A DNA stretch of 64,000 nucleotides from an uncultured Roseburia sp. (lineage in GTDB: Bacteria; Bacillota; Clostridia; Lachnospirales; Lachnospiraceae), in assembly GCA_947564465.1 (NCBI GenBank), contig CANOCV010000006.1, forward strand, positions 1-64,000, written 5' to 3'. A program made the translations under genes and the position numbers. The notes below the pieces were generated by a model, which saw only the letters and a list, made by a program, of their open reading frames with translations, was not told where the DNA came from and did not search any database. The number at the start of each line of letters is the position of its first letter. The first letter of the stretch is position 1. Positions 24,704 through 63,096 of this stretch are shown in pieces.

Positions 24704-24758
24704 AAATCACCTATGCCTCCATTTTCCCGGGTTTTGCCGCGTGAATCGCAAATATTTC

Positions 24759-24968
24759 TTATAAATTCACAAGAAAATTCACGCCATACTGAATCAAAGT
24801 ATCCAATAACGCGATAATCAGACCTACAATAACTGACACAACAACGACCGCAGTCGTCTGACGGGCAAGAGTTTCTTTTGTCGGCCATACAATTTTCGCA
24901 AATTCGGCCTTAACTCCTTCGAGCCAGCTTTCTTTCTGAACGCCGCTCTTATTTTCGTTTTCTCCCAT
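24759..24968 (-). CDS. secE: Preprotein translocase subunit SecE
   Basis: SecE clamps SecY in the inner-membrane translocon. I start at the ATG at 24968 (69 aa, MGENENKSGVQKE); AAGGAA lies 9 nt upstream, while the GTG three codons earlier abuts that site. An amphipathic cytoplasmic helix (WLEGVKAEFAKIVWPTKETL, with the signature WPT) is followed by one membrane segment (VVVVSVIVGLIIALLDTLIQYGV). This single-span form is normal for Firmicutes. Confidence 0.95.
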   Translation of the reverse strand: MGENENKSGVQKESWLEGVKAEFAKIVWPTKETLARQTTAVVVVSVIVGLIIALLDTLIQYGVNFLVNL

Positions 24969-25010
24969 ACTTGTCACTTCCTTTGCTCAATCTAGGTTAC
25001 CAGCACAAAA

Positions 25011-25160
25011 TTATTTCGTTTCTTTGTGTAAGGTATGTGTTCTACAGAATCTGCAATATTTCTTTGTTTCCATTCTGTCCGGATGAGCTTTTTTGTCCTT
25101 TGTCATGTTATAATTACGCTGCTTGCATTCTGTGCATGCTAATGTAATCTTTGTGCGCAC
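25011..25160 (-). CDS. rpmG: 50S ribosomal protein L33
   Basis: This small 49-aa L33 begins with a GTG (25160, [17 protein letters not shown]); GGAGGTGG lies 5 nt upstream, and the longer reading would begin upstream of that site. It is the zinc-binding form, with CTEC and CRFC pairs and the ending HTLHKETK. The zinc-free paralogue, if present, is elsewhere. It is the promoter-proximal gene of the secE-nusG-rplK-rplA run. Confidence 0.95.
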
Positions 25161-25237
25161 AACTTCCACCTCCATTAATTCATTGTATTTATGCCTGTTT
25201 TTAGGCATAAAAAAAAGACCTACTTCCAAGCCAGTTT

Positions 25238-25266
25238 AATATAACACACTTTTTTTCATTCTGCAA
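25238..25266 (-). promoter_or_regulatory. Sigma-A promoter of rpmG-secE-nusG-rplKA
   Basis: On the minus strand TTGCAG (25261-25266), a 17-bp spacer and TATATT (25238-25243). A small hairpin (TTATGCCT/AGGCATAA, about 25192-25211) lies in the leader but has no T run behind it in this direction. Confidence 0.72.
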
Positions 25267-25331
25267 GTTATTTTTTCCCGAAAATAAGCCGATATAAATT
25301 AAAAGCAATTGCAAAAAATAACGAATTACCG

Positions 25332-25360
25332 ATGACAAATTTGTTTTTTCATATTATAAT
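25332..25360 (+). promoter_or_regulatory. Sigma-A promoter for the FliD-like gene
   Basis: ATGACA (25332-25337), a 17-bp spacer and TATAAT (25355-25360) lie 68 bp before the ATG. A sigma-28-like -10 box, GCCGATAT, lies upstream at 25288-25295 but has no good -35. Confidence 0.6.
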
Positions 25361-25427
25361 GTATATATAAACGGATTTATGTTACCCCAGTGTGAAAGCA
25401 CTTTCAAGGAAGAAAGGAGGGGGAAAT

Positions 25428-26732
25428 ATGGTAACTGCAGTCATGGATAATGCATACAATTATTTTTTGACTACTTACGGCAATTCTGCCGTGTCCAGAT
25501 ACGATGCGCACAAGCGCAGCGAATTGCGCACCACTTACAACAACATAGTCAAGATCAACAAAGAATCCCCGCTCTATAAGATCAAAGAATCTGGGGATGT
25601 GGAAAAATTTGTGATTGACATCAAGGAGAACGCCCGAAGTCTCAAGAACATTATTGCTTCTTTATCGACAGATGACGCTGGGATTGAGAGCGCATTCCGC
25701 AAAAAGGTTGCTGTTTCCACACAACCCGATATCGTCGACGCGGTTTATGTCGGCAACGGACGCGAGAACGACGGTTCCTCAAAATATACGATTGAGGTCA
25801 ACCAGCTTGCCAGTCCGCAGACAAATCTTGGCAATTTTCTGCGGGACGATACGCTTGACGTCTTACCGGGAAGCTATTCTTTCGACTTAAGTACCACAGT
25901 CGCTTCCTATGAATTTCAATTTTCAGTAAATCAGAACGACAATAATCATAAGCTTCTTGATAAAATTTCAAGACTAATCAATACCGCAAATATCGGGCTT
26001 AATGCCGAATTAGTCTCTGACGAAAGAGGACGCTCCGCCCTGAAAATCGAATCCAGACAGACCGGTATGCGGGACGGAGAAGATTACATCTTCCAGATTG
26101 TACCGGACGGCGCCAATCTCTCCAAGGTAGCGATGGATGTTCTCGGAATCGGGCGTGTTGATTCCAGGGCACAAAACGCCTCTTTTATTTTAAACGGCAG
26201 CGAACGAAGCTCTTACTCAAACAAGTTTACAATTGATAACACGTTTGAGCTTAATTTAAAAGGAATCAGCGAGGAAGGCAGTCCGGTATCCATAGGCTAT
26301 AAGACCAGTGTAGACGCCGTTGCCGATAATATTCAATCTCTTGTTGATTCATACAATCAGATGCTTGGCACTGCACAAAATTACGCTCACACTCAGCGGG
26401 ACAGCGTAAAATTAATTTCCGATATCGGAAGTGTCGCGAAAGGTTTCCAGACCGAATTTGAAAATATCGGCCTTCTTGTAGATCGCTCGGGAGCCATTTC
26501 TATCGACAGAACACTTCTCGCCAATGCTGTGGGCGCCGAAAATTCCAACGAGAGCTTTTCCATTTTAAATCAATTCAAGGACGCTCTTAATGCAAAGGCA
26601 GAACGCGCATCTATCAATCCGATGAATTATGTAAACAAGATTTTGGTTGCCTACAAAAATCCGGGACATAACTTTGTGACACCTTATATCACATCTATTT
26701 ATTCCGGTATGATGTTGGATACTTACTGTTAA
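25428..26732 (+). CDS. FliD-like flagellar hook-associated protein, divergent
   Basis: The start is the ATG at 25428 (434 aa, MVTAVMDNAYNYF), with AGAAAGGAGGGGG upstream; an upstream reading adds 12 residues over that site. It resembles FliD in order: a helical N-terminal segment (SELRTTYNNIVKINKESPLYKI), a FliD_N-like beta region (KYTIEVNQLASPQTN) and a FliD_C-like region (LLDKISRLINTANIGLNAEL ... VADNIQSLVDSYNQML). It lacks the start signature ITGMNSGLDTE of true FliD, which is present in the gene at 53381, and the long C-terminal coiled coil. Its ending (YITSIYSGMMLDTYC) is unlike any cap protein I know. It is alone on the plus strand at the edge of the glycosyltransferase island. It may be a second cap, an adaptor or a filament accessory; function unknown. 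Confidence 0.72.
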   Translation: MVTAVMDNAYNYFLTTYGNSAVSRYDAHKRSELRTTYNNIVKINKESPLYKIKESGDVEKFVIDIKENARSLKNIIASLSTDDAGIESAFRKKVAVSTQPDIVDAVYVGNGRENDGSSKYTIEVNQLASPQTNLGNFLRDDTLDVLPGSYSFDLSTTVASYEFQFSVNQNDNNHKLLDKISRLINTANIGLNAELVSDERGRSALKIESRQTGMRDGEDYIFQIVPDGANLSKVAMDVLGIGRVDSRAQNASFILNGSERSSYSNKFTIDNTFELNLKGISEEGSPVSIGYKTSVDAVADNIQSLVDSYNQMLGTAQNYAHTQRDSVKLISDIGSVAKGFQTEFENIGLLVDRSGAISIDRTLLANAVGAENSNESFSILNQFKDALNAKAERASINPMNYVNKILVAYKNPGHNFVTPYITSIYSGMMLDTYC

Positions 26733-30187: not shown

Positions 30188-31270
30188 TTATTCTAAGAAT
30201 GCAAGACGCTCCTTTGCCGGTGCATATTCGCCGCATTTCTTATAATACTGTATCGCCTGCGCCGTATTGCCAAGGCATTCGCGAACTACTCCCGCATTAT
30301 AATATGCAAGAAACGAATTTGCTCCCTGCATTCTAGCGCGCTCACAGCCTGCGGCACTTAAAAATTCTCCGACCGCAGCGTCAAACATCTCATTATTCAT
30401 ATATATCAATCCCATCAACAGCTTAAAGTCCGCCGTTTCCCCAAATTCGTCATAGATATTTTCAAACATAAGCGCTTCCTTGGCCCGCCCTGCATTCAAC
30501 AGCGCATATCCGTAAGTCTCCACCATATCTATGACATACTCCAATGACGGATTCAAATCAAACGAAAGTCCCCTCGAAAAATACTCTGCCGCCTCCCGAT
30601 AATCCTCCTGCATATAGTAGCTCTTACCGAGCTGATAGAGAATGTACGGATCATCTCCGCCCGTCGCAAGCTCCTGTTTTAAAAGAACAATATTACGCTC
30701 GGCTTTTTCCCGTTTCTGTTTCGGAGTCCCCATATATCCGTCATGCCGGATCGTAATTGGAAGGGATATATAAACATCCGATGCTACTTGCCCATCTCCG
30801 GCCACAGGCAGCAGCTGCTCATGAATTCTCCCATAATATTTGTATCTGCGTCTGTCAAAAACTCTTGCAATGAATTCCTGCTGATAATTTACCTGTCCCT
30901 TCTGTTCTATCTGATTGCGCCTTACAATGCGCCCTATTTTATCGCTGCCGCCCCCCAAAAATCTCTGCACCGCATCTAAATCCATATTCTCAATTACTTC
31001 ATCGCTGTCCAATACAAAAACCAAATCATTGCCCGCTAAAGAAACCGCATAATTTTTTGCCGCGGCAAAATCATCGCGCCATTCAAAAACAGATTTTTTT
31101 AATGTAAATTTCTTTTTTGGATTTTGCCCCCATTCTTCCAGTATTTCAACTGTACCATCCGACGAACCGGTATCCACGACAATCAGCTCTACGGCATAAT
31201 CCCAAAGAGAAACAAGGCAGCGGTTTAGCTTTTCTTTTTCATTTTTTGTAATCATACAAATTGACAGCAT
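30188..31270 (-). CDS. GT2 glycosyltransferase with C-terminal TPR repeats
   Basis: The protein has 360 aa. Residues 1-210 are a GT2 domain of the SunS/WaaE-like class: LSICMITKNEKEKLNRCL, VDTGSSDGT, FVLDSDEVI (the DxD equivalent) and WRDDFAAAKNYA. Residues 215-360 form tetratricopeptide-like helical repeats (YILYQLGKSYYMQEDYREAAEYF, AYYNAGVVRECLGNTAQAIQYYK). This architecture is known from enzymes that glycosylate peptides or proteins, and the TPR part may hold the acceptor. It is the first gene of the operon that continues with two CgeB-type genes and GT8. The start ATG has GAGGGG upstream. Confidence 0.88.
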   Translation of the reverse strand: MLSICMITKNEKEKLNRCLVSLWDYAVELIVVDTGSSDGTVEILEEWGQNPKKKFTLKKSVFEWRDDFAAAKNYAVSLAGNDLVFVLDSDEVIENMDLDAVQRFLGGGSDKIGRIVRRNQIEQKGQVNYQQEFIARVFDRRRYKYYGRIHEQLLPVAGDGQVASDVYISLPITIRHDGYMGTPKQKREKAERNIVLLKQELATGGDDPYILYQLGKSYYMQEDYREAAEYFSRGLSFDLNPSLEYVIDMVETYGYALLNAGRAKEALMFENIYDEFGETADFKLLMGLIYMNNEMFDAAVGEFLSAAGCERARMQGANSFLAYYNAGVVRECLGNTAQAIQYYKKCGEYAPAKERLAFLE

Positions 31271-31318: not shown

Positions 31319-31347
31319 ATTATATCGGTTTATTGCCAAAGAAACAA
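31319..31347 (-). promoter_or_regulatory. Sigma-A promoter of the GT2-TPR/CgeB/GT8 operon
   Basis: On the minus strand TTGTTT (31342-31347), a 17-bp spacer and TATAAT (31319-31324). The -10 is embedded in ACCGATATAAT, which resembles a sigma-28 -10, but there is no TAAA at the right distance, so I assign sigma-A. Confidence 0.6.
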
Positions 31348-31373
31348 TAGGCGGTTTTGAACATGAGGTGCTT

Positions 31374-33021: not shown

Positions 33022-33624
33022 TTAAAGAAAGCCGCGGTAATTTTCTTCGATAGAATCTATAATTTTCTCATTCCCTAATAAAAGCTGCTCATATATGATT
33101 TCCGTTCTGAGGACACCCTCCACCGCCAAATCATGATCCGCCGCCTTTATCATATTTTTCAATGTTTCGATAAGCTCCGACGGCAAATAGGGATATTTCA
33201 ATTCAATTCTTCTTATAATGTGCAGCGACTGCTTCTTATCGTCGTCGGAGACCGGCTGCGTCTGAACAAGCAGACCGCCGTTTTGTGTTTTGATCACATG
33301 ATAGTCCTCAGGGGCTATCTGCTCAATTACCAGCAGAACATCCTTCTTTGTCAGATTTATGGAACGGATTGCCATGAAAAACTGCCATCCAAAACACACA
33401 CTCGTTAATGTCAAAGAAAACACGAGAATGACAGAAGACAGATGGAAAATATTTCTTACGGGGTTATTCATGATAGGAACATCATAGTGCAGGCCTATTA
33501 TAATTATTATCATACCGGCTGCTAAGGAAGCAAAAGTCTTGGAAACGGCCTGCCGAATCATCTCCCGGCGCAGCCGTCCAATATCCTTTTTATCAAAATC
33601 AATATAATTGAAATGTTTCTTCAT
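33022..33624 (-). CDS. Two-helix membrane protein of unknown function
   Basis: The protein has 200 aa. A basic N-terminus precedes two membrane segments (FASLAAGMIIIIIGLHY and LSSVILVFSLTLTSVCFGWQFFMAI), followed by a soluble C-terminal domain of about 110 residues (KKDVLLVIEQIAPEDYHVIKT ... EIIYEQLLLGNEKIIDSIEEN). The ribosome binding site is weak (AAAAGG). I do not recognise a family. It is a single gene inside the glycosyltransferase island, behind its own promoter and next to the decayed membrane-protein remnant at 32630. Confidence 0.6.
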   Translation of the reverse strand: MKKHFNYIDFDKKDIGRLRREMIRQAVSKTFASLAAGMIIIIIGLHYDVPIMNNPVRNIFHLSSVILVFSLTLTSVCFGWQFFMAIRSINLTKKDVLLVIEQIAPEDYHVIKTQNGGLLVQTQPVSDDDKKQSLHIIRRIELKYPYLPSELIETLKNMIKAADHDLAVEGVLRTEIIYEQLLLGNEKIIDSIEENYRGFL

Positions 33625-33731: not shown

Positions 33732-35843
33732 TTATGGTAACTTGCTGGCAAACTCCCACTTCAGCTCCGCCGCGACTTCCAGAAGCTTTACCGGATCGTC
33801 GTCATTCATCTGCATAATTGCCACATCCAATGTCGGCAATGTCTTTTTCAGCTTCTCATTGTCATACCCCGGCGATACCGCCTTTCTCCTCAGCTTCCTA
33901 AGCTTTTGAAGCATTTCAAGAGCAGGAAACGGCTCCTTTGCAATATGGCTTTCCAGGCAGGCATTCACTGCAAACGAATAAAACTGGAGCAACGTATAAT
34001 CCAGAGCATAGCGAAGCTTTTTGTAATTTGGCAGCACATGTATTTTCTCCCATGTACCCTTCATCGCTTCGTACAAACTTCCGCAGTACGATTCCCTGTC
34101 TCTCTTTTTGGACAACGAATCGTCGGTATTTTTGTAGCTGTAAACAACTTCCTTTAAATTTCCGATGTTAAATGCGGCAGCAAACAGGAAATCTAAGAAA
34201 TCCGAATCCTCAAGCATCGGCACATGCTCACGGAAGCGCAGATGATGCTTCTCAATCAGCTCTCTACGGACGAGCTTGCTCCACAGATAACCGCCGCGCA
34301 TAATCAGTCGGCTGCGCTTCTTTGCATTGAGCACTCCGGTATCCTCATCCCCCGTATATAAGACGATCGTATCCTTACCTTCATAGATAAATCCGCCGTC
34401 CACCAGATCGTAGTCGCCCTCCTTCGCCTTTGCATATAAGCGCTCATACATCTTAGTATCCGGCACGTCGTCGCAATCCACGAAGCCGATATACTCTCCG
34501 GTCGCCGCCTCAAGGCCAAGGTTTCTCGCTCCTCCGGCTCTTCGGTTATCCGGCGAGGCAATGACCCGCACGCGGTCCGGATACTGTCTCTGACACTCCC
34601 GAAGAATCGCAAGACTGTTATCCGTAGAACAGTCGTCAATAAAAATAATCTCAATATCCTCAAGCGTCTGGTGCACGAGATTGCCAAGACACCCCTGAAA
34701 CTGCTTTTCTCCATTATAGACCGGCACAATAACGGACACTTTTTTCGGCGGCCGTCCCTCATTGAGATACTCGTAGAGTGAAAGCTCCCCCTTGATATCC
34801 GCCTCAATTATAGATAGCGCCGTATTTGACACCGGAAATTCCGCGAAATATGCCGCGCCCCCCTCCAAAACCTTCTTCCCATGCTGCATAATCAGCGTCC
34901 TGATATTCTTATAATGCTCCAATAAAAGAGGCAGCTCCCTTGAGAAATCCAAAAACCCTCTCTCCCCCCGTTTCTTCTCCTCATGCATAATATAAATCAG
35001 CCGCTCAATCGCAGGAATCTCCCCCCTGATATCCGACGCATTCTCTCTGATATCCGGGCGAATCTTAAGATAGCCGTAAAACAGCTCCTTCGCCTGCGCA
35101 ATCTCCCCGGCCGCAATCAGACTCGTCATAGCCTGCTTAAACTCTATTGTCTCCGCCTTTTCCGATGTGATTCCTATCCGGCATTCCTTATAACGGTATT
35201 TTCTGGCTGCAATCCAGACGTAGAGCATTACCTCGGAAAGAAAACCGTAAACGCGTTTGTGGTACATGTCATAATCCGAAACGTCAATCGCATCCGACGC
35301 CTCGGCAAATATATGAAACAGCCATTCACAGTACTCGTCAAATTTCTCTTTCGTCGTCACCATCAGATTGCCGTAGCAGCACTTATCGTCCGCCATCACC
35401 TTCTCAAATGCCGGATAATCCTTAGGATACAGCTTCTTGATCGCATCCCCCACCGCATTCATATCGGCAATATTATGCGCCTTTGCAAAATTCTCCCTGT
35501 TACTTCCCCCATTCGACAGAAAATCAGAGGTCAGAATATCACAATCCGAAAGCGCTTCCTCATAATCTGCCTGTGTCATAAAACGGCTGCCGTCCTCTGT
35601 AAGGAAATACCGTCTGTAATGACAGATTCCGATTACATCCGCCTCCGTCTCATTCTTCCAAAGCCAGTATAAACCGGTCAGCTCTCCGTAGAGCGGATTT
35701 AAATCGGAAATGTGATCTCCCGTATCGTCGCCCATATAGCCGAGATCCTCCGTAATTGCCCGGCCGACATGCATCGGAACATAGACAGGATCCTCCGGCT
35801 TTTGAAATAATTTGTGGGTCATCGTATATATTTTAACATTCAT
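33732..35843 (-). CDS. DUF4422-GT2 fusion glycosyltransferase
   Basis: The protein has 703 aa. Residues 1-240 match DUF4422, a domain of capsule and glycan enzymes: HISDLNPLYGELTGLYWLWKN and DVIGICHYRRYF, followed by a YHKRVYGFLSEVMLYVW block. Residues about 365-600 are a GT2 domain with VSVIVPVYNGEKQF, IFIDDCSTDNS, GGARNLGLEAATGEYIGFVDCDD and a catalytic-base region MLEDSDFLDF. A helical region of about 100 residues follows. The start overlaps the end of the preceding gene by 11 bp, with AGGAGGAG upstream, so the two are translationally coupled. Two active domains in one chain suggest sequential sugar addition. Confidence 0.86.
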   Translation of the reverse strand: MNVKIYTMTHKLFQKPEDPVYVPMHVGRAITEDLGYMGDDTGDHISDLNPLYGELTGLYWLWKNETEADVIGICHYRRYFLTEDGSRFMTQADYEEALSDCDILTSDFLSNGGSNRENFAKAHNIADMNAVGDAIKKLYPKDYPAFEKVMADDKCCYGNLMVTTKEKFDEYCEWLFHIFAEASDAIDVSDYDMYHKRVYGFLSEVMLYVWIAARKYRYKECRIGITSEKAETIEFKQAMTSLIAAGEIAQAKELFYGYLKIRPDIRENASDIRGEIPAIERLIYIMHEEKKRGERGFLDFSRELPLLLEHYKNIRTLIMQHGKKVLEGGAAYFAEFPVSNTALSIIEADIKGELSLYEYLNEGRPPKKVSVIVPVYNGEKQFQGCLGNLVHQTLEDIEIIFIDDCSTDNSLAILRECQRQYPDRVRVIASPDNRRAGGARNLGLEAATGEYIGFVDCDDVPDTKMYERLYAKAKEGDYDLVDGGFIYEGKDTIVLYTGDEDTGVLNAKKRSRLIMRGGYLWSKLVRRELIEKHHLRFREHVPMLEDSDFLDFLFAAAFNIGNLKEVVYSYKNTDDSLSKKRDRESYCGSLYEAMKGTWEKIHVLPNYKKLRYALDYTLLQFYSFAVNACLESHIAKEPFPALEMLQKLRKLRRKAVSPGYDNEKLKKTLPTLDVAIMQMNDDDPVKLLEVAAELKWEFASKLP

Positions 35844-38310
35844 CTATTTTCTCCTCCTGAAGTTCTCCTAATATCTCAAGAAATTCCTCGGTACGTCTCT
35901 CCCATGTATGAAAACGACGGCTCTTCTCACAACCTCTTTTTGCAATCTGCCTGCGCTTATGCTCATCCGCAAGCAGCTCCTTAATCCGCCCGGCAAGCGC
36001 CTTTCCCTCTCTTAAGTCAAACAACACCAGCTCTTCCCCGTCGGCAAAATTCTTCGTCAGATATCCGCTCTTATCCGACACTGCCACCGTGCCGCACAAA
36101 AGCATATTTGCAATGCGCTCCGTAAAACCGCCCTTATGCCATGACATAATATTTAAGGATATCTTAGAGTCCTGCCAGACCTCCATACTCTCCTCCACCG
36201 ACACCTGCGGATGGCAGATTAAACCGTCATACTTTGAAAGCGGGCTCTTCTTCCAGCTCTCCCCGTAAACGTGTATCGTAAGCCCCTCCTCAAGCAGCGT
36301 CCGCATGACCTTTTCCCGATAATAAGTCATAATCGCAAAACATACCTGCTTCAAATCAAATAACACATTCTTAAAATCCTCGTCATTCAGTTCAATCCCA
36401 TAATCCGCAAGCGCCTGCGCAAACGCCTGCTCCGCGCAAAGGTTCGGATTCTTCTTCATAATCAACAAAAAACGGTTTGCCAGATAACGCTCCCTGGTCT
36501 TCGTATTTTTGATAAACAAAAGGCGCTCCCTGTAATCGTACCATGTTCCTACGAACGTCACGTCAAGCCTGCGCTCCCTCTCCCAAATTGCTCCCTCATG
36601 TGCGGGCAGCCTTCCCGCAGGCGGCAGCAGATAGCATCTTTTTACCTGCTTTCCAAAATACCGCCCCACAAATTCCTGATAATCCCTTCCATGCGTAAAA
36701 ACATAAAATTCCTTTGGCCCCTGTTCCAAATGCTCCTTCATCCAGAGAGGATGATCGAAAATGAAGTGAAACTTCGGCCCGTCTATACAGTCATGCACAT
36801 TCCTTCCGTCCTGCAAATGCACAGAAAACAGATATGTCTGAAATCCCACAATCGCCTGGTAGGTGCGCCCGATAAGCTCCAAAAGCCCCTCGGCGCCCCG
36901 TTTTCCGATATCATAAACCTCCACTTCTTTCCCGGCGCGTCTGAGCGCACAAATAAATGCATCCGCAAAAGAATCCAGTACACTGTAACACGTATCGTCT
37001 CCCCGGTACACAAGAATCGGGCAGCATTTTCTGTAACGCGCCCCAAATTCGCCCTTCCTTGCAATCATCTGCTCCAAAAACGCGGTTCCGTCCTCCACAA
37101 AGCCAATCTCATTGGCCTGCCGCAAAAGCTCCTCTACCTTACCGTTAAACGTTCCCTCCTGCTGCAAATGTCCCGCATGCAGTCCTGCCAGAAAACACTG
37201 CTCCTTATATTTAAGCCAAAGCTCTCTGCACCTTGCAGCCTCCGATCCCTCTTTAAATACCTCATGCCATTGCCCGATTCTTCCCTCTCCCAAAAGATCT
37301 GCATACTGCTGCATACAAAGCCTTCTCTCCCAGCCTGATCTCTTTACCGAAAACAGCTCCCGCAAAAGCCCGCAGTCGCACACCCACAGGTATGGATTGT
37401 CATACTCATCAAAGCCATACTGTTTCAACTCGGCATACATTCTGCCATAAATATTTTCCGGAATTTCTCCCCACTCCAGATATGCGCCGAGCAGATTCAT
37501 CACGCAGTAGCTCTTTAAAAATTTCGCCAAAAGCTCCAGCCGAAAGCACCCCGTCAGACCGCGCTTTTCGTATTCCCGCATTAAAAGAATCTGCACCTGC
37601 ATACTCTGCAAAATGTTCTCCTCAGTTACATGATTAGAGCTTGACCCGCTGCGATTCACATAATGATAAAACGGCTTTTCAAAAATATAGTAGCTGCCGA
37701 CCTCCAGATTTACAACGGACTGCCAATAATTATCCTCATAAAACGTCCCTTCCGGAAAATACAGCTGTTTCTCCCGTATCATCTTAAGACGATAAATTCT
37801 TGCGCCAAAATGCGTATTCGTCCCAAGCAAAATCAGACTCTTTCTCTCCTCATTGCTGTTTACGGCCACCGCATGCTCTCTGACAAGCGTATCCTTCACT
37901 GCCTGAAGCGTCGCAGTGCCGTCCGCCAGGACGGTTTCATTGATATGTCCGCCGCCCGCCATATCACAGCAAAAGGCTTCCGCCGCCTGATAAAGCTTCT
38001 CATACATATCCGGCTCTACATAATCATCCGCATCAAGAAAGCCCACGTATTTCCCCGTGGCATAAGATATTCCGATATTTCTGGCAGCGCCCTGCTTTTT
38101 ATTCTCCTCAAGATTCACGACCATAACCTGATTCGGATAACGCTCCTCAAAGCCCAAAAGCTTCTCTCCCGTCGAATCCGTGGAGGCATCGTTGACAAAA
38201 ATCAGTTCCAGTCCCTCCATCCCGATTGTCTGCGCAAACAGCGACGATGCACACTTTTCTATGGTTCCCTCTGCGTTGTAGCATGGAATGATGATACTTA
38301 TTTTTGTCAT
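35833..38310 (-). CDS. GT2-CgeB fusion glycosyltransferase (subfamily B)
   Basis: The protein has 825 aa. Residues 1-240 form a GT2 domain (ISIIIPCYNAEGTIEKC, FVNDASTDSTGE, GAARNIGISYATGKYVGFLDADD, FPEGTFYEDNYW). Residues about 430-825 form a CgeB-type GT-B part with FHFIFDHPLWMKEHL, SKISLNIMSWHKGGFTERI and GTVAVSDKSGYLTKNFADG, matching subfamily B (the gene at 28986). A middle segment of about 150 helical residues joins them. It is the first gene of an operon with the DUF4422-GT2 gene. The upstream region carries a near-consensus sigma-28 box but no good sigma-A site. Confidence 0.87.
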   Translation of the reverse strand: MTKISIIIPCYNAEGTIEKCASSLFAQTIGMEGLELIFVNDASTDSTGEKLLGFEERYPNQVMVVNLEENKKQGAARNIGISYATGKYVGFLDADDYVEPDMYEKLYQAAEAFCCDMAGGGHINETVLADGTATLQAVKDTLVREHAVAVNSNEERKSLILLGTNTHFGARIYRLKMIREKQLYFPEGTFYEDNYWQSVVNLEVGSYYIFEKPFYHYVNRSGSSSNHVTEENILQSMQVQILLMREYEKRGLTGCFRLELLAKFLKSYCVMNLLGAYLEWGEIPENIYGRMYAELKQYGFDEYDNPYLWVCDCGLLRELFSVKRSGWERRLCMQQYADLLGEGRIGQWHEVFKEGSEAARCRELWLKYKEQCFLAGLHAGHLQQEGTFNGKVEELLRQANEIGFVEDGTAFLEQMIARKGEFGARYRKCCPILVYRGDDTCYSVLDSFADAFICALRRAGKEVEVYDIGKRGAEGLLELIGRTYQAIVGFQTYLFSVHLQDGRNVHDCIDGPKFHFIFDHPLWMKEHLEQGPKEFYVFTHGRDYQEFVGRYFGKQVKRCYLLPPAGRLPAHEGAIWERERRLDVTFVGTWYDYRERLLFIKNTKTRERYLANRFLLIMKKNPNLCAEQAFAQALADYGIELNDEDFKNVLFDLKQVCFAIMTYYREKVMRTLLEEGLTIHVYGESWKKSPLSKYDGLICHPQVSVEESMEVWQDSKISLNIMSWHKGGFTERIANMLLCGTVAVSDKSGYLTKNFADGEELVLFDLREGKALAGRIKELLADEHKRRQIAKRGCEKSRRFHTWERRTEEFLEILGELQEEKIDEC

Positions 38311-38348
38311 TACGCCCTCCCTGGCTCTTTTGCCCGCTCTTTTTTATT

Positions 38349-38376
38349 ATATCGGCAAATACACCAATTTCCTTTA
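38349..38376 (-). promoter_or_regulatory. Candidate sigma-28 promoter of the GT2-CgeB operon
   Basis: On the minus strand TAAA (38373-38376) and GCCGATAT (38349-38356) are separated by 16 bp, one more than the usual 15. The -10 matches the consensus at every position. A TATAAT overlaps it, but no -35 hexamer stands 16-18 bp upstream of that. It lies 39 bp before the start codon. Confidence 0.5.
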
Positions 38377-38381
38377 TTGGG

Positions 38382-38410
38382 TTTACTTTATTTTCAACAA
38401 TTATTATAAT
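38382..38410 (+). promoter_or_regulatory. Promoter of the plus-strand CgeB pair
   Basis: TTTACT (38382-38387), a 17-bp spacer and TATAAT (38405-38410), 50 bp before the TTG start at 38460. It is back to back with the sigma-28-like box of the divergent operon. Confidence 0.5.
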
Positions 38411-38459
38411 ACACTTATAGTACACAAACGAGCAAGTAAATTTCAGGAGGCCACAGGGA

Positions 38460-39638
38460 TTGAGAATACTATTTTACCGTTACGGAAGCATCTGTGAACC
38501 TGACATCATAGATGCATTTAAAGAATACGGATTTGAGATAACAGAAATCACCAAAGAAATCTATACGAAGAACTTTCCGCCTGATAAGGGTGTTGCTCTT
38601 GTCAGCCAGGTTCTTATGGACACCCCGCACGACGCGGTATTTACCATCAATTTTTTTCCGTTTATCGCAGAGGTCTGCAATATTATGAAGCTGCGCTATA
38701 TCAGCTGGATCGTAGACTCTCCGGTGCTGGAATTATATTCCCCGGCCATAGCGAACCCATGGAATCGAATCTTTCTCTTTGACCGCAGCCTGTACCAGGA
38801 AATTGCACCGATGAATCCCGACTGCGTTTTTTATCTGCCCCTGGCCGTCAATATCAGCCAAAAGCAGGGAGCAATCCAAAACGCCCCCGCCGCGCAGAGA
38901 GACAAATACGCCTCGGAAATTTCCTTTGTCGGCTCACTCTACACGGAAAAATGCCCGTATCAGGATTTGGACGCTGTGCCAAAGCGGCTTCTCGGATACC
39001 TCGACGGTCTGATCGAAGCCCAGCTGTTAGTCTACGGCTATTATTTTATCGACGACATTCTAAAGGACGAGGACATTCAGACATTTAAGGAACATGCAAA
39101 GCACTTTCCGAGTCTGCCTTATTCCTCGCCGCTTACCGACCGGGTTATCGTCTCCCAGTTTTTCCTTGGGACACAAGTTACCGTCTTAGAGCGCGAACGG
39201 CTTTTAAAGCGGCTTTCCGCAGAATTTCCTGTCGATTTATATACCGGAAGCGACACCTCAAAGCTTCCCGACATCCATGCAAAAGGACTTGCGACAACCA
39301 TGGTAGAAATGCCGCTTATTTTCCATGAAAGCCGCATCAACCTAAACCTGACCGCCAAATCTATAAGAAGCGCACTTCCGCTGCGCATCTGGGATATTCT
39401 TGGCTGCGGCGGATTCTGCCTGACAAATTACCAGCCTGAAATCTCAGAATATTTTACGGTTGGAGAAGAAATCGAGACCTATACAAACGAAGAAGAATTA
39501 GTAGAAAAATGTCATTATTACTTGGAGCATGAAAACAGACGAAAAGAAATTGCGGACAACGCCTACGAAAAAACAGCAAAATATCACACCTACATCGTCC
39601 GTCTGTGCGAGCTGATGGAGCTTGCGTTTGCGCATTAA
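38460..39638 (+). CDS. CgeB-type glycosyltransferase, subfamily A
   Basis: The protein has 392 aa with a TTG start (38460) supported by AGGAGG 10 nt upstream; no ATG fits. N-terminal features are FTINFFPFIAEV, WIVDSPVLELY and LFDRSLYQEI. The donor half has RINLNLTAKSIRSALPLR and DILGCGGFCLTNYQ (about residues 290-325). Its GIPLR equivalent is ALPLR, the most divergent of subfamily A. It is followed after 33 bp by a paralogue of the same length, so the pair is one transcript. Confidence 0.84.
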   Translation: MRILFYRYGSICEPDIIDAFKEYGFEITEITKEIYTKNFPPDKGVALVSQVLMDTPHDAVFTINFFPFIAEVCNIMKLRYISWIVDSPVLELYSPAIANPWNRIFLFDRSLYQEIAPMNPDCVFYLPLAVNISQKQGAIQNAPAAQRDKYASEISFVGSLYTEKCPYQDLDAVPKRLLGYLDGLIEAQLLVYGYYFIDDILKDEDIQTFKEHAKHFPSLPYSSPLTDRVIVSQFFLGTQVTVLERERLLKRLSAEFPVDLYTGSDTSKLPDIHAKGLATTMVEMPLIFHESRINLNLTAKSIRSALPLRIWDILGCGGFCLTNYQPEISEYFTVGEEIETYTNEEELVEKCHYYLEHENRRKEIADNAYEKTAKYHTYIVRLCELMELAFAH

Positions 39639-51307: not shown

Positions 51308-52270
51308 TTAACCAAGTAAGGACAATACACCCTGTGTTGACTGATTTGCCTGTGCAAGCATAGACTGTCCAGCCTGTGCAAGGATCTGGTTCTTCGTGTA
51401 GTCAACCATTTCTTCAGCCATATCTGTATCACGGATCTGGGACTCAGCAGACTGTGTATTCTCAGCTGTTGTATCCAGGTTGGCAATTGTATGCTCTAAT
51501 CTGTTCTGTACAGAACCAAGAGTAGATCTCATAGCAGATACTTTCTCGATAGCTGCCTGTACGTAAGACATTGCAGCACCAGCAGCGCTGAATGTGGATA
51601 CGTTGATTGCATTGTAGATAGCTGTCGTTGTAGTAACAGTTGAGCTAACGCTCTTGATAACTGTTGTTCCGTTAGCTGCTGTAACAGAGCCACTGTTTGT
51701 GATTGTTGTAGAACCAACCTTCAAAGTTGTGTTCAATGTAGCAACTGATGTTGCGCTTCCTGCTCCAAACAGAGCGCCTGCAGACATAGATGTAATCGAA
51801 ATTGCGATTGTCTGTCCGCTCAAAGCACCTACCTGAAGGTTCTTTCCTGTGAAGTTTCCGTCTAACAGGTTCTGTGTATTGAACTGTGTTGTAGACTGGA
51901 TTCTGTTGATCTCAGATGCTAACTGGTTCATCTCAGACTGGATAGCATTTCTATCAGCAGTTGTATTTGTATCGTTAGCTGCCTGTGTAGCCAACTCGTT
52001 CATACGCTGTAAGATAGAATGTGTCTCATTCAATGCACCCTCAGCTGTCTGGATTAAGGAAATACCATCCTGTGCATTAGAAGAAGCTTTGTTTAAGCCT
52101 CTGATCTGGCTTCTCATCTTCTCGGAAATGGAAAGTCCTGCTGCATCGTCTGCTGCACGGTTGATTCTGTAACCGGAAGATAACTTCTCTGTTGATTTAC
52201 CCTGTGAGCTTGTTACAAGTCCTAACTGTCTGTTAGAGTTCATTGCCTGTAAATTGTGCTGTACTACCAT
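51308..52270 (-). CDS. hag: Flagellin
   Basis: This is the filament subunit, 320 aa, from the ATG at 52270 (MVVQHNLQAMNSNRQL), with AAGGAGGA upstream; the longer reading crosses the leader hairpin. The D0/D1 N-terminal domain is at residues 1-140 and the C-terminal D1/D0 at 237-320. The TLR5-contact helix QRMNELATQAAN (88-99) keeps the key Arg89, Leu93 and, further on, Glu113. The central residues 158-235 contain 31 Ser/Thr in 78, a good O-glycosylation target. A sigma-28 promoter and a CsrA-type hairpin control it. Chaperone (FliS), anti-regulator (FliW) and glycosyltransferase genes are close by. Confidence 0.97.
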   Translation of the reverse strand: MVVQHNLQAMNSNRQLGLVTSSQGKSTEKLSSGYRINRAADDAAGLSISEKMRSQIRGLNKASSNAQDGISLIQTAEGALNETHSILQRMNELATQAANDTNTTADRNAIQSEMNQLASEINRIQSTTQFNTQNLLDGNFTGKNLQVGALSGQTIAISITSMSAGALFGAGSATSVATLNTTLKVGSTTITNSGSVTAANGTTVIKSVSSTVTTTTAIYNAINVSTFSAAGAAMSYVQAAIEKVSAMRSTLGSVQNRLEHTIANLDTTAENTQSAESQIRDTDMAEEMVDYTKNQILAQAGQSMLAQANQSTQGVLSLLG

Positions 52271-52277
52271 AATATAT

Positions 52278-52310
52278 TCCTCCTTGAATATGTTGCAGCA
52301 TCCATGCTGC
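52278..52310 (-). promoter_or_regulatory. Candidate CsrA-binding hairpin and Shine-Dalgarno of flagellin
   Basis: The leader RNA folds GCAGCA-UGGA-UGCUGC (52295-52310), a 6-bp stem that puts GGA in the loop within AUGGAUG, close to the CsrA consensus. The Shine-Dalgarno AAGGAGGA (52278-52285) lies 9 nt downstream and offers a second GGA. This matches the two-site arrangement known on B. subtilis hag mRNA, where FliW relieves CsrA repression. Confidence 0.65.
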
Positions 52311-52394
52311 AGATTTTGTTTTGTTAGTGTGACCACCCTCAACCGTACGTTTTGAGGACGATTCACCAAGTAACACTTCGTTTACTTGTTATAT

Positions 52395-52421
52395 ATATCG
52401 GACTTTCGTCTCAATACTTTA
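52395..52421 (-). promoter_or_regulatory. Sigma-28 promoter of flagellin
   Basis: On the minus strand TAAA (52418-52421), 15 bp, then TCCGATAT (52394-style -10 ending at 52395), against the consensus TAAA-N15-GCCGATAT. It gives a leader of about 120 nt. Confidence 0.85.
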
Positions 52422-55720: not shown

Positions 55721-56122
55721 TTATCGCTTTTCATCTACCATGATTCCGGCCATCTCCCAGACCTTCTCGATCATATCGAGGGTCTTTTCCGGCGGATATT
55801 CTTTAATAACCTTTTTCGATTGTTTGTCTACAATCTTAATTGTCACGCGATTCGTCCCGTCATGAATCCCGAAAATCGCTTCCGTCTGCGGATTATTCTT
55901 ATTGATGTCTTCCACCGCCTTACGGATCTGCCCATGTTGTTTTGCCGCTTCCTGTTCCCTTTGTTCCATTGAAGCAGCGCTTTCGCTCTCGTGTCCCGAC
56001 TTCATGCGGGCCTGCTGTTCCGGCGTCTCCACCAGCACCGCTTCCGGCTCACCTTTCGGCTCGGCTGCCGGCACACTTCCCTGATATGCCTTTGCTGCTC
56101 CTGCTACTGATTCAATAACCAC
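55721..56122 (-). CDS. flaG: FlaG family flagellar protein
   Basis: The protein has 133 aa. The C-terminal half matches FlaG: VTIKIVDKQSKKVIKEYPPEKTLDMIEKVWEMAG. The N-terminal half is low-complexity and charged, with a long helix. FlaG affects filament length in other bacteria; its mechanism is not settled. It is the first gene of the flaG-fliD-fliS-fliT-like transcript, 48 bp from a consensus sigma-28 promoter, with GGAGGTG before the ATG. Confidence 0.88.
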   Translation of the reverse strand: MVIESVAGAAKAYQGSVPAAEPKGEPEAVLVETPEQQARMKSGHESESAASMEQREQEAAKQHGQIRKAVEDINKNNPQTEAIFGIHDGTNRVTIKIVDKQSKKVIKEYPPEKTLDMIEKVWEMAGIMVDEKR

Positions 56123-56169: not shown

Positions 56170-56196
56170 ATATCGGTTTTTTTAGCGGATACTTTA
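56170..56196 (-). promoter_or_regulatory. Sigma-28 promoter of flaG-fliD-fliS
   Basis: On the minus strand TAAA (56193-56196), 15 bp, then ACCGATAT (ending at 56170), in the 77-bp gap after csrA. It makes the filament-cap genes a late transcript independent of the flgM-flgK unit. Confidence 0.82.
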
Positions 56197-62732: not shown

Positions 62733-63014
62733 TTAATTATGTGCTGCATGATACTTGACAAACAACTTGCTTGCAAAATCTCCGGAATCTACATTGTAGT
62801 TCCCTGACCAAATACTTGCTTTAAGCTCAGAAACTTTATCTTCCCTGATGTCCGAAGCTTCTGCGACTGCCTGTTTTGCGATCTGAAAATCACGTCCGAA
62901 AGAGGATATCTGTACTTCATCTCTTCCTGCTGCGGCTTCCCTTGTGCCAGATGCTTTTGCGGATTTCCCTGTTTTATACAATGCTGCCACCTGATTATAA
63001 GCTTCTATACGCAT
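62733..63014 (-). CDS. flgM: Anti-sigma-28 factor FlgM
   Basis: FlgM holds sigma-28 inactive until the hook is finished and FlgM is secreted. The protein has 93 aa from the ATG at 63014 (MRIEAYNQVAALYKTG), with AAAGGAG upstream; an upstream Met adds ten residues over that site. The C-terminal half has DEVQISSFGRDFQIAKQAV and a sigma-binding region ending FASKLFVKYHAAHN. It is the first gene of the late operon and is itself under a sigma-28 promoter, which gives negative feedback. Confidence 0.92.
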   Translation of the reverse strand: MRIEAYNQVAALYKTGKSAKASGTREAAAGRDEVQISSFGRDFQIAKQAVAEASDIREDKVSELKASIWSGNYNVDSGDFASKLFVKYHAAHN

Positions 63015-63069
63015 AACGGCATCTCCTTTCTTCCCTGAAAACACACGCCTTGTTGGCGTTCTAATCTAT

Positions 63070-63096
63070 TTATCGGTAGTTTTCCCAAAAACCTTA
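63070..63096 (-). promoter_or_regulatory. Sigma-28 promoter of the flgM-flgN-flgKKL-fliW-csrA operon
   Basis: On the minus strand TAAG (63093-63096), 15 bp, then ACCGATAA (ending at 63070), one mismatch in each box from TAAA-N15-GCCGATAA. It lies 56 bp before flgM. Confidence 0.78.

Follow-up and report, generated by a model that had tools for sequence, protein, structure and literature searches.

A putative sigma-28 promoter before a GT2-CgeB glycosyltransferase operon, 14 kb from flagellin, in an uncultured Roseburia sp.

Control of flagellar glycosylation by the flagellar sigma factor has been described in C. difficile, where a sigD mutation lowers expression of the glycosylation genes CD0241-CD0244 11- to 50-fold, along with that of other late genes (PMC3865298). 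No SigD promoter was found before that glycosylation cluster, and its cotranscription with fliC was proposed (PMC3865298); a further C. difficile glycosyltransferase paper (PMC5207246) gives no promoter information. For the closely related Roseburia and Eubacterium, the sigma-28/SigD promoters of flagellin genes have been reported, which share the TAAA and CCGATAT boxes with the site described here; that study analyzed flagellin genes only, and neither "glycos" nor "CgeB" appears in its main text (PMC3720852). Measured against the SigD promoters of B. subtilis, TAAA-N13-16-GCCGATAW (quoted in PMC3865298), both boxes of the present site are exact and its spacing is within the range, at the long end. 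The locus in the uncultured Roseburia sp. resembles the C. difficile regulon in that flagellin-linked glycosyltransferases would stand under the flagellar sigma factor and in the N16 spacing, which is also that of the C. difficile fliC promoter, but it differs in that the operon has a box of its own, 14 kb from flagellin. The principle is already known from C. difficile, and the dedicated putative promoter at this distance is the new detail.

The box and its gene neighborhood

The sequence analyzed (the window) is a stretch of 64,000 nucleotides. The original prediction had placed a TAAA-N16 element with a perfect -10 at 38349-38376, without a strand. We found TAAAGGAAATTGGTGTATTTGCCGATAT at exactly this position on the minus strand, with both boxes intact, upstream of the GT2-CgeB gene and in its orientation. 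The box is separated by 38 nt from the ATG at 38310, which is immediately preceded by the ribosome-binding site GGGAGG, and the transcription start is predicted from the box at about 38341-38344, which would give a leader of about 31-34 nt. The features of the region are as follows.

38349-38376, minus strand: putative sigma-28-type promoter, with -35 TAAAG at 38372-38376 (core TAAA at 38373-38376), an N16 spacer and -10 GCCGATAT at 38349-38356
38346-38351, minus strand: overlapping perfect sigma-A -10 TATAAT; best -35 AGGAAA, 3/6 at N16
38382-38410, plus strand: divergent sigma-A-type promoter, TTTACT-N17-TATAAT, for the DUF3880-CgeB gene
38311-38421: conserved intergenic block of 111 bp holding both divergent promoters; differs from congener G003 at two positions, each within the N16 spacer
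35833-38310, minus strand: GT2-CgeB fusion glycosyltransferase, 825 aa (PF00535 at 5-122, PF13524 at 668-812)
33732-35843, minus strand: DUF4422-GT2 fusion, 703 aa, second gene of the operon, overlapping the GT2-CgeB reading frame by 11 bp
33022-33624, minus strand: 200-aa protein without a family, candidate operon member, 107 bp downstream of DUF4422-GT2
38460-39638, plus strand: divergent DUF3880-CgeB glycosyltransferase

Since the upstream gene is divergent, the GT2-CgeB operon needs its own promoter within the 149 bp between the two genes, barring antisense read-through. Genes for flagellin, FlgN, FliD, FlaG, FliW, FlgL, FlgK and FlgM are located at 51-63 kb of the window, and the flagellin gene (51308-52369) has a CgeB-type glycosyltransferase directly downstream. 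Glycosyltransferases are thus genetically linked to flagellin in the window, and similar linkage is seen in relatives. The FliA sigma factor is encoded in the genome (TIGR02479, 269 bits; cut-off 189.6), and the gene for FlgM is present in the window (62733-63044).

Fit to the sigma-28 promoters of the clade

A matrix of the -35, the -10 and their spacing was built from 41 sites in front of the flagellin and FlaG genes of relatives, with the own genome excluded. These sites were chosen by their similarity to the consensus, so that the matrix sharpens the consensus and does not prove it, and its value is in what it finds. Flagellin and FlaG sites served as positive controls in place of chemoreceptor genes, for which a convincing box was seen in 0 of the 17 scanned (of 22). 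With a score of 20.96, the candidate comes fifth among the approximately 128,000 positions of the window; the four sites with higher scores precede the genes for flagellin, FlaG, FlgM and a FliD-like protein:

52395-52421, minus strand: native sigma-28 site of flagellin (51308-52369), N15, score 29.65, positive control
56170-56196, minus strand: native sigma-28 site of FlaG (55721-56122), N15, score 29.64, positive control
63070-63096, minus strand: native sigma-28 site of FlgM (62733-63044), N15, score 24.57, positive control
25269-25295, plus strand: sigma-28-like site of a second FliD-like gene (25392-26732), N15, score 21.5

The candidate is weaker than the flagellin and FlaG sites (20.96 versus 29.6) because its spacer is N16 and the T of TAAAGT is replaced by G. 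Its score was unmatched in 25 simulated windows of 64 kb (1.6 Mb). In a background of twenty 20-kb stretches (400 kb) from the rest of the own genome, such a score was reached at two sites, upstream of flgG and upstream of the gene of a 226-aa protein; a box of the same kind precedes the gene of this protein's homolog (38% identity) in G016, a member of another genus.

The second FliD-like protein of the window (446 aa, FliD_C) has homologs inside glycosyltransferase islands of other genera; in G003 the boxes of its sigma-28-like site are kept while the spacer has diverged, and the 688 bp upstream of the gene (24704-25391) contain no large open reading frame and are 94% identical to G003. Elsewhere in the own genome, strong sigma-28-like boxes precede the genes of the 226-aa protein, which is unnamed, and of a DUF6033 protein (L216:482-1162 and L215:3079-3801, on contigs C1 and C78). 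Their homologs in G016 and G031 have the same boxes, and both may be members of the flagellar regulon.

The original prediction had counted one extra base in the spacer. N15 was found in 36 of the training sites and N16 in the other five, making the latter a normal minority spacing; native N16 sites also precede flgG of the own genome, flgG of a second congener (G005) and a FliK gene. N16 is also the spacing of the C. difficile fliC promoter, which has a RACE-mapped start (PMC3865298); there, as in the candidate, we counted 17 letters between TAAA and CCGATAA. In another genome, a sigma-28-like N16 box was observed upstream of a gene whose product has a type IV prepilin N-terminus (L279, G011:C5:112917).

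How often such a site occurs by chance depends on the pattern used. The exact pattern TAAA-N14-17-GCCGATAW has a single match in the window, namely the candidate (0.08 expected from shuffles). Genome-wide, the textbook pattern TAAA-N13-17-GCCGATAW gives 14 matches and its reversed control 8, which is close to chance, and these counts were dropped as evidence. They would agree with the candidate being a random match in AT-rich intergenic DNA, with the true promoter elsewhere in the 149 bp. The clade matrix speaks against this reading, as does the stricter clade consensus TAAAG-N15/16-CCGATATA, which has 6 matches in the own genome (before the genes for flagellin, FlaG, FlgG, the DUF6033 protein and the 226-aa protein, and at the candidate) versus 0 for the reversed control. 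Across the family (60 genomes), this consensus matches approximately five times as often as the reversed control; the matches within coding sequence (about 13) equal the control, whereas the intergenic ones examined are mostly flagellar, being found before flagellins, FlgG, FlgK, FliD, FlgM, FlaG, FliS and some flagellin-linked island genes, with about ten preceding unassigned or other genes. We therefore regard a random match as very improbable.

Conservation and the overlapping sigma-A element

Conservation of the box before orthologous operons had been proposed as a check. One clear ortholog of GT2-CgeB was identified, in congener G003 (83% protein identity), and the check is positive there, as the upstream region retains TAAA and GCCGATATAAT and the only two substitutions of the 111-bp block fall inside the spacer; it is negative in other genera, where no box lies directly before homologs of the GT2-CgeB gene itself. 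For comparison, third codon positions of the GT2-CgeB gene average 66% identity to G003, and the surrounding genes are about 82% identical. The conserved block continues into the start of the coding sequence, with 90% identity at third positions of codons 1-30, and this unusual conservation of the first codons weakens the upstream conservation as evidence, part of which could reflect a recombined tract. Under a sigma-A reading, both substitutions would likewise be in the spacer, and the conservation therefore supports a promoter without by itself selecting the sigma factor.

The original prediction stated that no sigma-A -35 is well placed. This is correct, since the best -35 at the box matches at 3/6 positions (at least 4/6 were required) and no TGn extension is present, but the perfect TATAAT at 38346-38351 had been overlooked. 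It can be proposed that the housekeeping polymerase uses this TATAAT, perhaps with an activator, and that the GCCGA upstream of it is coincidental. The TATAAT is kept in G003, and sigma-A-type promoters are found at the divergent gene and at the 30188-31270 unit, both of which would agree with such a proposal. Against it stand the poor -35 without a TG extension and the score, absent from the 1.6 Mb of simulated sequence, that a coincidental sigma-28 match would need. The overlap of the two -10 elements is no argument for sigma-A, because the native sigma-28 promoter of flgG has the same CCGATATAAT. We consider use by sigma-A alone unlikely, if somewhat less so than a random match. A dual promoter, in which sigma-28 and sigma-A start from the overlapping elements and provide a flagellar boost over a basal level, agrees with the presence and conservation of both -10 elements and has a parallel in the two promoters reported for one fliC gene in Butyrivibrio (discussed in PMC3720852); its sigma-A half, however, has no -35. 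We hold it as a tentative possibility, which as a sub-case overlaps with the sigma-28 reading that we prefer.

A related arrangement is observed at 31322-31349, before the GT2-TPR unit (30188-31270, minus strand), where TTGTTT-N17-TATAAT with sigma-A-type spacing has its TATAAT inside CCGATATAAT; this promoter also scores 16.7 by the sigma-28 matrix.

Sigma-28-like boxes in the glycosyltransferase islands of other Lachnospiraceae

The matrix was applied to 354 kb around homologous glycosyltransferases from 20 genomes, with 241 kb from the same genomes as control DNA. Among the sites in the test set with a score of at least 20, six precede flagellin genes, one precedes FlaG, and 7 more precede non-flagellin genes:

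G316: before a PseB-like gene
G015: before a GT2 gene
G021: before a GT-like gene
G206, G124, G420 and G230: before a unit starting with an unnamed protein of ~120 aa

The PseB-like and GT-like labels were read from the N-termini and not from a family search. No site with a score of at least 17 was found in the 241 kb of control DNA. The excess at the islands is modest (7 of 7 in the test set, p about 0.03; p about 0.004 with the own-genome sample added as control). The divergent arrangement recurs in G124 and G420, where the gene transcribed away from the box shares 52-53% identity with 38460-39638.

The unnamed proteins of about 120-130 aa form a family without a Pfam match and with mutual identities of 25-52%. 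Seven Lachnospiraceae genomes encode a member in their glycosyltransferase islands, and in four of them a sigma-28-like box stands directly before the gene. The window has no homolog. The family loci are listed below, with further matches in L226, L227 and L237.

L221:8334-8699
L225:4384-4770
L228:5797-6177
L235:9768-10256

Two nearly identical sigma-28-like boxes were also observed downstream of flagellin in G029 (L290 and L291, G029:C54:82289 and 95085), one at 15 kb before a CTP_transf_3 (CMP-sugar-synthetase-like) gene and the other at 28 kb before an inositol-monophosphatase-like gene.

The sigma-28 reading of the Roseburia box is well supported because of the clade matrix, the native N16 promoters, the conservation in the congener and the recurrence of such boxes at flagellin-linked islands of other genera, and judging from sequence we consider it highly probable that the GT2-CgeB/DUF4422-GT2 operon has a functional sigma-28 (FliA/SigD) promoter at 38349-38376. 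At the level of the promoter, this upholds the earlier proposal that the operon joins the late flagellar regulon. The claim that the box gives strong support for a flagellar acceptor went too far, as neighboring glycosyltransferase units in the island look sigma-A driven. Sigma-28 control fits flagellin as the target and does not prove it; regulon membership and proximity make flagellin the likeliest acceptor.

We infer the activity of the promoter, its timing and the acceptor as follows. On export of FlgM, the FliA RNA polymerase would transcribe the operon alongside flagellin, FlaG and the second FliD, with a short-leader mRNA for GT2-CgeB and DUF4422-GT2 starting at the 38349-38376 promoter. 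Both glycosyltransferases would then be produced when the filament protein is made, most likely for the flagellin glycan. For the family as a whole, we somewhat favor the view that dedicated sigma-28 promoters, as opposed to read-through from flagellin, put chosen sugar-transfer and nucleotide-sugar operons of flagellin-linked islands, together with the ~120-aa family, in the late flagellar regulon.

Flagellins of the Roseburia group are major gut antigens, and an assignment at the level of the regulon provides concrete candidate enzymes for their decoration. The clade matrix can also be used to catalog flagellar accessory genes of uncultured Lachnospiraceae.
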